Assembly (NCBI RefSeq): GCF_900107095.1
Contig: NZ_FNOR01000010.1
Coordinates: 1-64,000 of the forward strand
Origin: Collimonas sp. OK242
Lineage (GTDB): Bacteria; Pseudomonadota; Gammaproteobacteria; Burkholderiales; Burkholderiaceae_D
Length of the DNA stretch: 64,000 bases
Direction of reading: 5' to 3'
This document shows positions 8,758-29,829 of this stretch, piece after piece. Position 1 is the first letter of the stretch. Each line of letters begins with the position of its first letter. Under the pieces are notes generated by a model, which made no database searches, was not told where the DNA came from, and saw nothing but the letters and a program-made list of their open reading frames with translations. The position numbers were made by a program, and so were the translations under genes.

Positions 8758-9764
8758 GAGCGATGGCGAATACGTGGATTGATCACGCCGTACAGCAAGT
8801 CGACGGCCAGATTGACGAGAATGATGATGGTCGCCGACATCAGGATACCGCCCTGCACCACCGGATAGTCGCGCCGCTGAATCGCCGCCACCAGCCATTT
8901 GCCGATGCCGGGCCAGGAAAAGATGGTTTCGGTCAGGATCGCGCCGGCCAGCAAGGTGCCGACTTGCAGGCCGACCACCGTAACTACGGGAATCAAGGCA
9001 TTGCGCAGAGCGTGCACACCCACCACCCGCCACGGCGAGAGGCCTTTGGCGCGTGCGGTGCGTACATAATCTTCACGCAAGACTTCCAGCATGGCGGAGC
9101 GCGTCATGCGCGCAATCACCGCCAGCGGAATGGTGCCGAGCGCGATAGTAGGAAGAATCAGGTGCGACAGCGCAGATTTAAAAGCGCCGCTATCGTCCGA
9201 CAACAAGCTGTCGATCAGCATGAAGCCGGTAACCGGCGGCACGTCAAACAGGATCTCGATGCGGCCCGAGACCGGGGTCCAGCCCAAGGTCACGGAAAAC
9301 AGCAGGATCAGCAACAGCGCCCACCAGAAGACCGGCATTGAATAACCGGTCAGGGATGCGCCCATCACCGAATAATCGAATACGGTATTGCGCTTCAAGG
9401 CGGCCAGTATGCCGGCCGGCATACCGATGGCCAGGGCAAACAGTATCGCGCAAAAAGACAGCTCCAGCGTCGCCGGGAACAATGTCTTGAATTCACTCAG
9501 CACGGAGGTATGCGTCATGATCGACATACCCAGGTCGCCCTTGAACACGTTACCGAGATAGTTAAAGTACTGCATGTAAATCGGCTGATCGAGACCAAGC
9601 TCGTGCGCCATTTGCGCGTAACGGGCCGGGTCCATGCCGCGCTCGCCGGTCATGGCTTCGACGGCGTTGCCGGGGATAAGGTGTATCAATAAAAACACCA
9701 GCAGCGTGATGCCGAGAAAGGTCGGAATGACCAAACCGACACGGCGCAGGAGAAATCCAAACAT
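8754..9764 (-). CDS. dppB: Dipeptide ABC transporter permease DppB
   Basis: Inner-membrane permease of 336 residues. MFGFLLRRVGLVIPTFLGIT is the usual DppB start, at the ATG at 9764 preceded by AGGTAA. The EAA loop reads LREDYVRTARAKGLSPWRVV, and the C-terminus has the membrane helix ILVNLAVDLLYGVINPRIR. An 11-codon upstream extension exists but lacks a ribosome-binding site. It is separated from the upstream binding-protein gene by 135 bases that contain a strong hairpin, a usual way to make more binding protein than permease. Confidence 0.95.
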   Translation of the reverse strand: MFGFLLRRVGLVIPTFLGITLLVFLLIHLIPGNAVEAMTGERGMDPARYAQMAHELGLDQPIYMQYFNYLGNVFKGDLGMSIMTHTSVLSEFKTLFPATLELSFCAILFALAIGMPAGILAALKRNTVFDYSVMGASLTGYSMPVFWWALLLILLFSVTLGWTPVSGRIEILFDVPPVTGFMLIDSLLSDDSGAFKSALSHLILPTIALGTIPLAVIARMTRSAMLEVLREDYVRTARAKGLSPWRVVGVHALRNALIPVVTVVGLQVGTLLAGAILTETIFSWPGIGKWLVAAIQRRDYPVVQGGILMSATIIILVNLAVDLLYGVINPRIRHRS

Positions 9765-25621: not shown

Positions 25622-26779
25622 CTAAAACAAACCCAGCTGACCTGACAGCCGGTCTTTTTCCGGCGGCGCATACGGCCGCCGGAAGCGGCTCGCATCCAGC
25701 GTCGCAAACGACCCGCGCTGCGCCATGCCGAATCTGATCAAGGCTTTTTCAAAACGCTGCCGCAACAGATCCGCCCACACGCCCTCGCCGCGCATGCGAG
25801 TGGCAAAATCGGCGTCGTAATCGGCGCCGCCGCGCATCTCGCGGATGCGATTCATCACCCGTTTGGCGCGCTCGGGAAAATGCGCGTTGAGCCAGTTCTG
25901 GAACAAGGGATTCACCTCCCACGGCAAGCGCAATACGATGTAACTGGCGCGCACCGCACCCGCTTCGGCCGCCGCCTCTATCACGCGTTCCAGATCGGGC
26001 TCGGTGATAAACGGGATCATTGGCGCGATGCTGACGCTGACCGGGATGCCCGCCTCGGCCAGCGTGCGGATGGTGCGCAAGCGCCGCGCCGGCGCGGCGG
26101 CGCGCGGCTCCAGGGTGCGGGCGACGGCAGGATCAAGCGTGGTGATGGTGACTGCCGCCACCGCCTGCCGTTTGGCCGCCATGCTGGCCAATAGATCGAT
26201 ATCGCGCTCTATCAGCGATGATTTGGTAATCAAGGCGAGCGGATGTTCGCAATCGTGCAGCACTTGCAAGATGCGCCTGGTCAGTTTCAATTCACGCTCG
26301 CAAGGCTGATAGGCGTCGGTGTTGATGCCAAGCGCAATCGATTCCGGGACATAAGAAGGCTTGGCCAGCTCCCGCAGCAATACTTCAGGCGCATTGACCT
26401 TGGCAAAAATCCGGCTCTCGAAATCCAGCCCGGGCGACAAACCCAGGTAGCTATGCGAAGGCCGGGCGAAACAGTAAATGCAGCCGTGCTCACATCCGCG
26501 ATAGGGGTTCAAGGACACATTGAACGGCAAATCCGGCGAAGCATTACGGCTCAGGATGGTCTTTGCCTGCTCTTCCGTGACAATAGTCCGCAGCGCTGCC
26601 GGCTCAAGCTGGCCGTCCTCGGCAGCCCAGCCATCGTCAAAATCCTCGCGCTGCGCAACTTCGTAGCGGCCCTGCATATTGTTGGTCGCGCCACGGCCCT
26701 TGGGCGGCACCTTATGCGCTACGCCAGACGCCTGAAAATGGATCACCTGGGATGGAGGCTGCTTTTGATAATCTGACAT
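25622..26779 (-). CDS. PA0069-family radical SAM protein (SplB-like)
   Basis: Radical SAM protein of 385 residues. The [4Fe-4S] motif is CxxxCxxC in YRGCEHGCIYCFARPSHSY, preceded by the family string FNVSLNPYRG. The family is related to spore photoproduct lyase (SplB) but its reaction is not established. The start at 26779 has no good ribosome-binding site, and a perfect LexA box begins only 12 bases upstream, so the transcript would be almost leaderless; an ATG 34 codons later is an alternative. The LexA box suggests induction by DNA damage. It converges with the Smr gene. Confidence 0.9.
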   Translation of the reverse strand: MSDYQKQPPSQVIHFQASGVAHKVPPKGRGATNNMQGRYEVAQREDFDDGWAAEDGQLEPAALRTIVTEEQAKTILSRNASPDLPFNVSLNPYRGCEHGCIYCFARPSHSYLGLSPGLDFESRIFAKVNAPEVLLRELAKPSYVPESIALGINTDAYQPCERELKLTRRILQVLHDCEHPLALITKSSLIERDIDLLASMAAKRQAVAAVTITTLDPAVARTLEPRAAAPARRLRTIRTLAEAGIPVSVSIAPMIPFITEPDLERVIEAAAEAGAVRASYIVLRLPWEVNPLFQNWLNAHFPERAKRVMNRIREMRGGADYDADFATRMRGEGVWADLLRQRFEKALIRFGMAQRGSFATLDASRFRRPYAPPEKDRLSGQLGLF

Positions 26780-26791
26780 CGCAATACCATT

Positions 26792-26811
26792 TACTGTATA
26801 TATATACAGTA
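26792..26811 (-). promoter_or_regulatory. LexA (SOS) box, perfect consensus
   Basis: TACTGTATATATATACAGTA is the textbook 20-bp SOS box (CTGT-N8-ACAG with TA repeats) and is fully palindromic. On the minus strand TTGCAG (26822-26817) and TATACA (26800-26795), 16 bases apart, give a plausible promoter under the box. It lies 12 bases upstream of the radical SAM start. Confidence 0.85.
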
Positions 26812-26912
26812 TATTACTGCAAATCCTGCCGTTTGCAACAGTAGACTATCAACTCCTTTTGGGTCCATGAAATAGGCAAGCGGATCTGCTGGGATGTGTG
26901 ATGCGAGCTGTG

Positions 26913-26935
26913 TATAATGATAATCAAATTATCAT
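26913..26935 (+). promoter_or_regulatory. -10 element overlapped by a Fur-like dyad
   Basis: TATAAT (26913-26918) is followed by ATGATAAT-CAA-ATTATCAT (26917-26935), a perfect dyad with 8-bp arms. The TGATAAT/ATTATCA halves are those of the Fur 7-1-7 box, but the centre is three bases instead of one. It would repress the promoter of the YkgJ and spermidine-synthase-like genes. No good -35 hexamer is seen. The regulator is inferred. Confidence 0.55.
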
Positions 26936-26980
26936 AAATGCGATGCATGAAATTCTGTAAATACGAATGGCGAGTAGCTA

Positions 26981-27343
26981 ATGGACAAACTGGACAAAAA
27001 CATCCAGACAATCAAATTTTTCAGGGAACGCATCCCGACATTCACCTGCGTTCCGGGGTGTCACGATTGCTGCGGCCCTGTGTTGGCGTCCACCGTTGAA
27101 ATGGCGAGACTGCCGCGCAAGAGCGAACCAGAGCAGGATGCCGCGCTTGCCGCATTAAGCTGCCCGCATCTGGGCGCCGCTGGCTGCCAGGTATATGAGG
27201 AGCGCCCGTTGATTTGCCGGCTGTTCGGCACCACGCCCAGGCTGGCCTGCCCGAACGGCAAGCGGCCCGAGGTCATGGTCGCCCCCGCTATTGAAGAACG
27301 GGTCTACCGCTATTTCGAGCAAGCACGCCATGTACTGGTTTGA
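26981..27343 (+). CDS. YkgJ-family Cys-cluster protein
   Basis: Small cytoplasmic protein of 120 residues. Eight cysteines form the family pattern: FTCVPGCHDCCGPV near residue 22, then SCPHLGAAGCQVYEERPLIC with RLFG after it, and a last Cys near 86. The family is predicted to bind zinc or iron, but its role is not known. It is the first gene behind a Fur-like dyad. Its stop overlaps a possible TTG start of the next frame, but the better start of that gene is 38 bases later. Likely an operon with the two genes that follow. Confidence 0.85.
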   Translation: MDKLDKNIQTIKFFRERIPTFTCVPGCHDCCGPVLASTVEMARLPRKSEPEQDAALAALSCPHLGAAGCQVYEERPLICRLFGTTPRLACPNGKRPEVMVAPAIEERVYRYFEQARHVLV

Positions 27344-27381
27344 CATCCCTGTTTTTACCCGATGACGTTGAAGATACGACC

Positions 27382-28194
27382 ATGCTTTTAGAAAACATCC
27401 GCGAACTTTCAGCGTTTTCCGGCGACGGCAGACCTTACATCTATAAAAACGCCCATTCTGTCTCCCTGCAGTTCGACAATACCGCGGTACAGAGCGAGAT
27501 GTACGTGACAGCGCCCGACGCACTCCTGCTGGGCTACACGGTGACGATGATGGGTTTCCTGCTATTCAAGCAAAGCCCCGAGACGATTGCCATGATCGGG
27601 CTGGGCGGCGGCTCTCTGGTTAAATATTGTTATCGCAACCTGCCCCAGGCATCGATCGTGGTCGCTGAGAACAACCCTGAAGTAATCGCATTAAAGGATC
27701 ATTTCCACATTCCTGAAGATGGCCGCCGATTGCAGATTCGCTGCCAGGACGGGCGCGACCTGGTACGGCATGCCGACGGCGATTACGAGATCCTGCTGGT
27801 GGATGGATTCGACCACACGGGACAACCGCCGCAGTTATGCAGCCAGGCCTTTTACGATGATTGCTATCAGGCGCTGGCGCCGGACGGCATCATGGTCGTC
27901 AATTTGCTGGGCAGCAGAGCAGACATGACGCACTACCTCGACCGCATCCACCGCAGCTTTGACGGCGCAGTGGTCGCAGTCGACGCCCTGGAATCCAACA
28001 ACATGATTGTATTCGCATGCAAAGGGCGACTGCTGGACATATCGGATCAGGCCGTCATGAGCAGGCTGAAAGATCTGGAGCCGCGCCATGCGCTGATGCT
28101 ACGCATGACCGCACAAAACATATTACGGCAGCGCAGAAATGATAAATTGATCGCGGCGCTGCACCTCTCCGCTGAACAGCTGCGCGCGGGATAG
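27382..28194 (+). CDS. Spermidine-synthase-like protein, first paralog
   Basis: Protein of 270 residues with the Rossmann methyltransferase-like fold of spermidine synthases. The nucleotide-site glycine motif is MIGLGGGSLVKYCYRNLP, the ribose-binding acid follows in VVAENNPEVIAL, and the catalytic-region Asp is in ILLVDGFDHTG. The N-terminal QSEM and MMGFLLF strings are shared with the next gene. The ATG at 27382 is chosen because it gives the same N-terminal length as the paralog; a TTG at 27340 overlapping the ykgJ-type stop is the alternative. No speD or other polyamine gene is nearby, so true aminopropyl transfer is uncertain. Confidence 0.8.
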   Translation: MLLENIRELSAFSGDGRPYIYKNAHSVSLQFDNTAVQSEMYVTAPDALLLGYTVTMMGFLLFKQSPETIAMIGLGGGSLVKYCYRNLPQASIVVAENNPEVIALKDHFHIPEDGRRLQIRCQDGRDLVRHADGDYEILLVDGFDHTGQPPQLCSQAFYDDCYQALAPDGIMVVNLLGSRADMTHYLDRIHRSFDGAVVAVDALESNNMIVFACKGRLLDISDQAVMSRLKDLEPRHALMLRMTAQNILRQRRNDKLIAALHLSAEQLRAG

Positions 28195-28212
28195 GGATAC
28201 GCTTAACACTAC

Positions 28213-28977
28213 ATGAACAATCCCAATCCCTTTGAATTGCTGCTCCATCAAAGTGGAGGAAAGCCCTTTGTGTTCGACAACGACGACATGCGCACGCTGC
28301 ATTTCGACGAAAAATATATACAAAGCGCAATGTCGATTTCTGCGCCTGACAAGCTGTTGCTGAGTTATACGCGGGCCATGATGGGTTTCCTGTTATTTCA
28401 GGCAGCGCCAAAACACATCTTGATGGTCGGCTTAGGCGGCGGATCGCTGCTCAAGTATTGTTACCGACATTTACCGTCAACCCGCATCACCGTGCTGGAG
28501 CTGCACGCCGAAGTCATTGCGCTGCGCAACGAATTCATGATTCCTGCCGATGACCAGCGCCTGCAAATCATCCACGCAGACGCCGCGGCATACATGCAAG
28601 CCCAGCAGGAAAATATCGCTGATGTCATCATGCTGGATGGTTTTTCCGCCGATGGCGCCGCACCTGAATTAAGTACCAGCGATTTCTATGCCGCCTGCCT
28701 GCGCAGCCTCATTCCGCAAGGCGTCCTGGTATCCAATTTATGGGATCATCCAGCTTCCCTGGTTGCCGCTCTTGCCCAGGCAACGATGGATACGGATTGG
28801 CGTATATGGTGGTGCAGGACCGATGACAGCCACAACTACGTCGCCTTTTTCGTCAAAGGAAATGATCCAGCCATATTTCGGCCGGTGGTGCTCAGTCGAG
28901 CCCGGAAATTGGATCAGCGCTTCGATCTAAAGCTATCTGAGCTGGTACCTTCATTCCAGCTCGCCAATCAATTTTGA
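28213..28977 (+). CDS. Spermidine-synthase-like protein, second paralog
   Basis: Protein of 254 residues, clearly paralogous to the one 18 bases upstream. Both have QSxM, PDxLLLxYT, MMGFLLF and GLGGGSLxKYCYRxLP. Here the acid after strand 2 is in VLELHAEVIALRNEF, and the catalytic-region string is VIMLDGFSADG, so the second Asp of canonical DxxD is a Ser. The C-terminal 60 residues differ most. The pair probably forms a heteromer or acts in successive steps. The ribosome-binding site is weak, so coupling to the upstream gene is likely. Confidence 0.8.
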   Translation: MNNPNPFELLLHQSGGKPFVFDNDDMRTLHFDEKYIQSAMSISAPDKLLLSYTRAMMGFLLFQAAPKHILMVGLGGGSLLKYCYRHLPSTRITVLELHAEVIALRNEFMIPADDQRLQIIHADAAAYMQAQQENIADVIMLDGFSADGAAPELSTSDFYAACLRSLIPQGVLVSNLWDHPASLVAALAQATMDTDWRIWWCRTDDSHNYVAFFVKGNDPAIFRPVVLSRARKLDQRFDLKLSELVPSFQLANQF

Positions 28978-29037
28978 CGAAAAACATAATCAATCCCCTG
29001 ATCTAGAGCCTGTTAACATTCAATTTGGGAGATGCGT

Positions 29038-29829
29038 TCAAAACGCCCATACCGCCGGACGTTTGCCCAGAAAGGCATCGATCCCCTCGCCCGCATCGTG
29101 TTCCATCGTGTTGCGCGCCATGACGTCGCTGGCGTAATCGTAGGCATCGCTCACGGTCATCTGCTGCTGCCGGTAGAACATCGATTTTCCGTGACGCACC
29201 GCGACCGGGCTTTTTGCCATGATTTCAGCCACTTTGCCTGCTATCGCTGCGTCGAGCTGGTCTTCTGCAACCGCGTCATTGATCAAGCCCCAGTCCTTGG
29301 CGGTTGCAGCGTCGATGAAACGTCCCGTGATCAACATGTCGAAGGCGCGCTTCGATGAAATATTGCGGGACAAGGCGACCGCCGGGGTTGCGCAAAACAA
29401 GCCGACGTTGATGCCCGAGACGGCAAACCGCGCGCTGTCTGAGGCGATCGCCAAATCGCAGCTGGCAACCAGTTGGCAGCCTGCGGCGGTGGCGATGCCA
29501 TGCACCCGTGCAATCACCGGCACAGGCAGCGCCTGGATACTCTGCATTAAGCGGCTACAGCGGATAAACAAGGCTTTGTAATAGGCGAGATCCGGATGAC
29601 TACGCATTTCGCGCAAATCGTGGCCCGCGCAGAACGCCTTGCCGGCGCCAGCCAGGACCACGCAACGAATGCCGGGATCGCCGGCAATCACGTCCAGTTC
29701 ATGCTGCAAGGCATCCAGCAGCACCTCGGACAAGGCATTGAACTGCAGGGGCCGGTTCATGCGCAGTGTCACGGCACCGTTGCAATTTTCTTTCTGCAGC
29801 AAGATTTCAGTCGCATTGCCTTGATCCAT
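29038..29829 (-). CDS. Enoyl-CoA hydratase/isomerase family protein
   Basis: Crotonase-family enzyme of 263 residues. Oxyanion-hole segments are VVLAGAGKAFCAGHDLREM and HGIATAAGCQLVASCDLA. The sequence from SARFAVSGINVGLFCATPAV resembles the ECHDC3/short-chain enoyl-CoA hydratase branch, in which the usual catalytic Glu positions vary, so the reaction (hydration against isomerisation) is uncertain. It is a single gene, facing the spermidine-synthase-like genes tail to tail. Confidence 0.9.
   Translation of the reverse strand: MDQGNATEILLQKENCNGAVTLRMNRPLQFNALSEVLLDALQHELDVIAGDPGIRCVVLAGAGKAFCAGHDLREMRSHPDLAYYKALFIRCSRLMQSIQALPVPVIARVHGIATAAGCQLVASCDLAIASDSARFAVSGINVGLFCATPAVALSRNISSKRAFDMLITGRFIDAATAKDWGLINDAVAEDQLDAAIAGKVAEIMAKSPVAVRHGKSMFYRQQQMTVSDAYDYASDVMARNTMEHDAGEGIDAFLGKRPAVWAF

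Follow-up and report, generated by a model that had tools for sequence, protein, structure and literature searches.

The stretch of DNA analysed here (the window, 64,000 nucleotides of contig NZ_FNOR01000010.1 of Collimonas sp. OK242, positions 1 to 64,000) carries on its forward strand three genes that lie head to tail with intergenic gaps of 38 and 18 bases. These encode a protein of the YkgJ/CxxCxxCC family (26981-27343; 120 amino acids) and two spermidine-synthase-like proteins, A (27382-28194; 270 amino acids; motifs GLGGGS and DGFD) and B (28213-28977; 254 amino acids; motifs GLGGGS and DGFS); the ATG at 27382 is the most likely start of A, although a longer frame opens with a TTG at 27340. 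Upstream of YkgJ lies a perfect dyad of 8-3-8 spacing, ATGATAAT-CAA-ATTATCAT (26917-26935), the putative operator of the unit, which shares two bases with the end of a TATAAT hexamer (26913-26918), the probable -10 element, for which there is no good -35. A preliminary description of this DNA had reported the three genes, the perfect dyad and the DGFD/DGFS difference, all of which are present, as well as a -10 covered by the dyad, of which the overlap holds but not the full coverage. A sigma-70 scan gave no promoter at 26913-26918, its single match being located elsewhere (28961-28990), and no terminator was found in a scan of 26780-29060. We consider it likely that this YkgJ-A-B operon belongs to the regulon of a ribbon-helix-helix repressor of the RHH_9 family and that A and B are methyltransferases resembling METTL13, an explanation of the whole locus in which we infer the binding, the repression and the enzymatic reaction from sequence.

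The dyad occurs in the genome more often than expected by chance and follows RHH_9 genes. With two mismatches or fewer, it occurs at three sites in the 4.98-Mb genome and at none in the backwards control, namely at the window promoter, at the promoter of a second A gene (A', contig C24) and at the promoter of a 66-amino-acid ribbon-helix-helix gene that belongs to RHH_9 (PF19839, E 1e-22). Three mismatches give 19 places in the genome against 4 in the control, and five of the 19 fall within 14 kb on C24, at A', at its partner B', at two RHH_9 genes and at a DUF1275 gene. In 399 genomes of the order there are 15 exact matches to the motif ATGWTAATNNNATTAWCAT, with A or T allowed at its fourth base (backwards control, 0). 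Eleven of them precede an RHH_9 gene by 140 bp or less, another is that of the window, and a further one (G368:C381) is flanked by DUF1275 and YjdM. When a palindromic motif was built from the upstream regions of 60 RHH_9 genes, seeded with the dyad form of the window and a second form, 50 of the 60 scored at least 12 in a leave-one-out test in which close relatives stay in the training set, compared with 0.3% of block-shuffled upstream regions. Furthermore, 29 of the 34 sites scoring at least 16 in 75 named loci outside the motif training are located in the 330 bp upstream of genes of the module that accompanies RHH_9 (see below), where 2.5 would be expected by length. In the named loci the site is found upstream of RHH_9 (20/28), of the SulP transporter gene (3/4), of DUF1275 (6/14) and of hyfB (6/16), but hardly before the inner genes of the hyf cluster (hyfC/E/F/G, 0/60; hyfI, 1/14), indicating that the operator marks the first genes of units. 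Duplicated loci (L127, L200, L201, L208, L209, L213 and L236) were left out of the site counts, as well as of the tree and the HyfG comparison described below.

RHH_9 is present in 54 of the 399 genomes, with 52 genes at E <1e-15, and two RHH_9 genes are found elsewhere in the genome of the window (C24:238314 and C24:241558). Within 7.5 kb of 47 of the 52 strong matches there is a gene for a Hyf-like complex (27), SulP (19) or the A/B family (13), and near the 52 YjdM is seen at 14 and YkgJ at 4. In other orders of the class (185 genomes), all seven strong RHH_9 genes, the genome of the window aside, adjoin hyf (4) or SulP (3), and four of the seven have the site directly upstream; these tallies cover strong matches, with seven weaker ones in the order set and four in the other orders standing outside. 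Seen from A, 32 of the 80 named A loci, which are the best 80 of at least 593 confirmed matches and include loci duplicated between collections, have RHH_9, SulP or hyf in their flanks, and a YkgJ of the kind in the window accompanies A in 14 of the 80 (three of these being identical-looking Pseudogulbenkiania contigs), so that the co-occurrence of YkgJ and A, a check proposed in the preliminary description, does recur. The arrangements include hyfBCEFGI-A-YkgJ in Gallionellaceae (L214, L218), YkgJ-A-B divergent from SulP followed by RHH_9 in Collimonas (L048-L050), and RHH_9-YkgJ-A-B (L046, L052). Sphingobium, with three copies, and a deltaproteobacterial bin (L245, L227) likewise combine A-family with hyf genes, which suggests horizontal transfer of the module. 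By eye, small HPr-like and enzyme-I-like frames of phosphotransfer type were noticed in the vicinity of A or RHH_9 genes of Paraburkholderia, Ralstonia, Burkholderia and Rubrivivax (L254 7752-7910, L266 7604-7954, L278 11238-11501 and L225 5387-6539).

The HyfG-like large subunit aligns over most of its length with subunit 5 of formate hydrogenlyase, HycE, which is also its closest solved relative (PDB 7z0s, E 2e-53). In [NiFe] group 4 hydrogenases two cysteine pairs bind the nickel. Among 36 HyfG-like proteins the N-terminal pair is always incomplete or absent (two retain one Cys), and so is the C-terminal pair in all 35 that reach that far (four retain one Cys), which argues that the Hyf-like complexes are not hydrogenases of the known kind. 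The SulP protein of the module contains the PF00916 and STAS domains, and its closest solved relative is PDB 6ki1 (E 2e-54), listed as a low-affinity sulfate transporter, which we take to be the bicarbonate transporter BicA. In the excerpts available of two papers SulP is treated as a bicarbonate transporter (PMC6458275; PMC10880623); the same excerpts of both are free of the term "hyf", and that of PMC6458275 of "ribbon-helix-helix". A link to the low-oxygen-activated (lxa) locus of Burkholderia cenocepacia was considered and dropped, as "spermidine" and "hydrogenase" are absent from the parts available of the corresponding literature, where two matches to "sulfate" are unrelated (PMC3759415; PMC9104464; PMC6127331).

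The promoter of the window itself probably records how the operon came to stand without an adjacent repressor gene. In the sister species Collimonas sp. OK307 (G002, NZ_FOQI01000008.1) the order is B-A-YkgJ (-), SulP (+), RHH_9 (-) and a radical-SAM gene (+), whereas the window has the radical-SAM gene and YkgJ with neither SulP nor RHH_9 in the interval between them; a search at E 1e-120, in which three of four candidates were scored, did not find a SulP of the G002 subfamily in the genome of the window. The 130 bases to the left of the dyad (26787-26916) are homologous to the RHH_9 upstream region of G002 (114/130 identical; shuffled maximum, 76) and do not match its YkgJ upstream region (69/130). 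Conversely, the right flank (26936-26980) is homologous to the YkgJ upstream region of G002, with 49 of 64 bases identical over 26936-26999 (shuffled maximum, 39), and does not match the gene side of RHH_9 (35/64). The junction of this chimera falls within the shared 19-bp site, so that the SulP-RHH_9 block was probably lost by recombination between two operators, the simplest reading of the arrangement. Operator and repressor are also lost together: among the Collimonas genomes with YkgJ-B, the operator is kept in all six that have RHH_9 (score 20.7-29.3) and is lost or degenerate in the three that lack it (G005, 0.3; G007, 11.4; G013, 4.2), where A and RHH_9 are gone and YkgJ-B is kept. Within the left flank, a perfect palindrome, TACTGTATATATATACAGTA (26792-26811), stands just before the PA0069-family radical-SAM gene (25622-26779, -); it resembles the LexA box of E. 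coli and differs at one position in the alignment with Collimonas sp. OK307, so that this neighbouring gene may be under SOS control.

The two spermidine-synthase-like proteins fall into distinct clades, each supported and predating the genus Collimonas, and thus did not arise from a recent tandem duplication (two "generic" rows of the tree, L030 and L034, are wrong-frame translations with very long branches and were disregarded). The second pair in the same genome (L036 on C24) is 56% (A') and 59% (B') identical to A and B, and its two genes are separated by a DUF167 gene and, between that gene and A' (L036, about 8927-9113), by a small element that resembles a miniature inverted-repeat transposable element; 23 bases behind B in the window (29009-29031) are identical to the inverted-repeat ends of this element. 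YkgJ scores 34.6 bits against PF03692 (cut-off 23), and its eight cysteines are invariant in 25 of 25 close relatives, which were found by similarity and aligned without the duplicates L201, L208, L209 and L213; it is probably an eight-cysteine, metal-binding partner of A and B.

The preliminary description had suggested aminopropyl chemistry, and indeed A and B exceed the cut-off of the Pfam family Spermine_synth (PF01564; 26.3 and 43.2 bits against 22.9). Both are, however, far below the cut-offs of the NCBIfam equivalogs PRK04457 (209.9 and 205.9 against 304) and speE (37.7 and 51.1 against 249.55 bits). According to the portion available of a study of related enzymes, spermidine synthases require the Asp or Glu of the motif GxG(D/E)G to bind decarboxylated S-adenosylmethionine (dcSAM) (PMC10349129). 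The glycine loop of A and B is GLGGGS, with no acidic residue at this position, and none of the 128 A/B-family proteins that contain a GxGxG motif has Asp or Glu there (132 were collected; the four without the motif include two wrong-frame translations). SpeD (PF02675), moreover, was not found in the genome of the window, in G002 or in G014. The best structural match of the A profile is the C-terminal domain of METTL13 (PDB 5wcj, E 8e-17), which has the same GLGGGSL loop. Taken together, the missing acid, the lack of a SpeD match and this structural resemblance make methyl transfer from S-adenosylmethionine (SAM) the likelier reaction: the most plausible assignment of A and B is to SAM-dependent methyltransferases like the C-terminal domain of METTL13, acting on an amine or a protein N-terminus, and they are probably not spermidine synthases. 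Two observations weigh against this assignment, namely that the spermidine synthase 3o4f scores level with METTL13 (1e-16), and that, of the nine Collimonas genomes carrying YkgJ-(A)-B, six have SpeD (G005-G009 and G013), so that dcSAM is available there. In several Collimonas, a SpeD match and a spermidine-synthase match share one long open frame (e.g. G006:C1:3759994-3760968), a likely SpeD-SpeE fusion.

That A and B might nevertheless be true aminopropyltransferases, making a polyamine-like product under RHH_9 control, would fit the Pfam score, the occurrence of SpeD in those six genomes and the conservation of residues, in that all 49 A-type sequences share the first Asp of VDGFD, one Tyr and one Gln, with one Glu and one further Asp almost as strictly kept; given the missing acidic residue, the absence of SpeD matches from the genome of the window and the low equivalog scores, this is unlikely, and polyamine synthesis by the operon has been set aside. 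Another view, which we find improbable, is that the pair consists of catalytically dead or scaffold-like sensors of SAM or nucleosides, through which the transporter or the Hyf-like complex would be tuned: the A/B genes do adjoin membrane complexes, and the second Asp of DGFD is replaced by Ser in B, Ala in B' and Glu in A', but the glycine loop and Asp141 are invariant in the 49 sequences and Glu96 and Asp123 almost so, as expected of enzymes. Control by Fur or a related metal sensor, with an operon producing a metal ligand, had been put forward in the preliminary description and appears very improbable. The half-sites TGATAAT/ATTATCA of the dyad resemble Fur heptamers, and YkgJ is a Cys-cluster protein, beyond which nothing speaks positively for a small metal ligand. 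The Fur box consists of inverted heptamers in 7-1-7 spacing, but the center of the dyad has three bases and not one, and a 7-1-7 scan with up to two mismatches gave 14 matches genome-wide (control, 4), all of them outside the window. Furthermore, the distant form of the site, ATGTTAAT-N3-ATTAACAT, follows RHH_9 genes, and the site disappears where RHH_9 does, so that the dyad is not a Fur box and metal control of this type was rejected. A strong operator-like site of an Oxalobacteraceae bacterium (L204 4214, score 25.1) lies, by eye, about 430 bp from a TonB-dependent-receptor-like gene, which would suit a Fur-type regulator and counts against RHH_9; it is nearer, however, to a ribosomal-protein-S11-like gene, behind which a B gene follows. 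What stood of the preliminary description is thus a real unit with a real, conserved site and the association of YkgJ with A, but neither the metal control nor the polyamine chemistry.

Our preferred explanation, by which RHH_9 controls the operon and its relatives, has to accommodate several further observations that do not fit it well. Ten of the 60 RHH_9 upstream regions score below 12, and for two of the 15 exact sites we have no explanation: that in G260 falls within a reading frame, and that in G397 (G397:C1:3664466) precedes a receptor-like gene, no RHH_9 having been found in this genome by the order-wide search. In a motif scan of 152 loci, 10 of the 113 sites scoring at least 14 precede no module gene, and column-permuted control matrices averaged 8.6 hits, but once reached 76. 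Neither hyf nor SulP nor A/B was seen around five of the 52 strong RHH_9 genes (one of which is close to the end of its contig), no site scoring at least 14 accompanies three of the seven in other orders, and 48 of the 80 named A loci, some on short contigs, have no RHH_9, SulP or hyf in their flanks. The region directly upstream of A carries the site in 5 of 81 cases in the named loci and 6 of 28 in other loci, that of YkgJ in 1/11 and 6/14, and that of YjdM in 0/8 and 5/14, respectively. Since the upstream regions of A and YkgJ in the named loci rarely carry it, the link between the site and YkgJ-A-B rests on Collimonas (6/9) and on gene neighbourhood.

In the mechanism proposed here, RHH_9 dimers would occupy both 8-bp half-sites and block RNA polymerase at the -10 element, and the RHH_9 genes, whose own promoters contain sites of this type, would be autoregulated. 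As judged from the sites, the regulon in relatives would comprise RHH_9, the SulP-STAS anion transporter, the Hyf-like complex of proton-pump type without nickel ligands, DUF1275 and sometimes YjdM, and would be joined in Collimonas by YkgJ-A-B. In the lineage of the window, recombination between operators would have removed the adjoining SulP-RHH_9 block and placed YkgJ-A-B behind the former RHH_9 promoter, leaving its control to be exerted in trans. A bioenergetic role can be suggested tentatively, in which a signal from inorganic carbon, pH or the proton-motive force is sensed by RHH_9, which would induce together a BicA-like SulP, the nickel-less, proton-pumping Hyf-like complex, A and B as dedicated N-methyltransferases of a protein or amine, and the eight-cysteine metal protein, the methyltransferases modifying a component of that membrane system. 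If so, the lineage of the window no longer has the transporter, and its modification genes have remained under the control of the former repressor.

These results provide a candidate repressor, operator and target set for families known by little more than their names (RHH_9, DUF1275, YjdM, YkgJ and the "hydrogenase-4" complexes without nickel ligands), so that a common function becomes testable through the repressor, and the chimeric promoter illustrates clearly how a block of genes has probably been deleted through recombination of one operator copy with another. They also call for caution, since A/B-family proteins are annotated as polyamine aminopropyltransferases without the residue for that reaction. 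No characterised RHH_9 member was among the literature matches listed (the best 15 of 228 in one listing), and no description of the RHH_9/SulP/Hyf-like/YkgJ-A-B combination was among the open-licence PMC matches listed (8 of 54 in one listing), a scope outside which bioRxiv falls.

Among known systems, the small ribbon-helix-helix repressors CopG, Arc and MetJ offer the closest parallel to RHH_9, which is likewise short, is probably autoregulated and has paired short half-sites placed over a promoter; RHH_9 differs in its 8-3-8 operator and in a regulon of a transporter and a Hyf-like complex. The Fur box is similar to the dyad in its AT-rich, TGATAAT-like half-sites, but not in spacing or in phylogenetic association. 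SulP BicA (6ki1) and HycE (7z0s), the closest solved relatives in the remainder of the regulon, are counterparts of its SulP and HyfG, the latter without a complete nickel-binding Cys pair. With SpeE (3o4f, TIGR00417), A and B have in common the sequence family, the catalytic-loop Asp and the second-best structural match, but they are set apart by the missing acidic dcSAM residue, by a genome without a SpeD match and by scores below the equivalog cut-offs. METTL13, the N-terminal methyltransferase of eEF1A, whose C-terminal domain (5wcj) is the best solved relative of the A profile and shares the GLGGGSL loop, acts on a eukaryotic protein, whereas A and B are stand-alone bacterial proteins with about 55 extra N-terminal residues; it is described, in the part available of one paper, as distantly related to spermidine synthase (PMC6109062). 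A precedent for such a reassignment is the fungal N-terminal histidine methyltransferase (NHMT) AN4663, which, in the available portion of its description, was annotated as a spermidine synthase, is actually a methyltransferase and was told apart by the missing D/E in GxG(D/E)G (PMC10349129). A and B share both this annotation and the missing acid with AN4663, which differs from them in being membrane-anchored and in acting on the N-terminal His of lytic polysaccharide monooxygenases.

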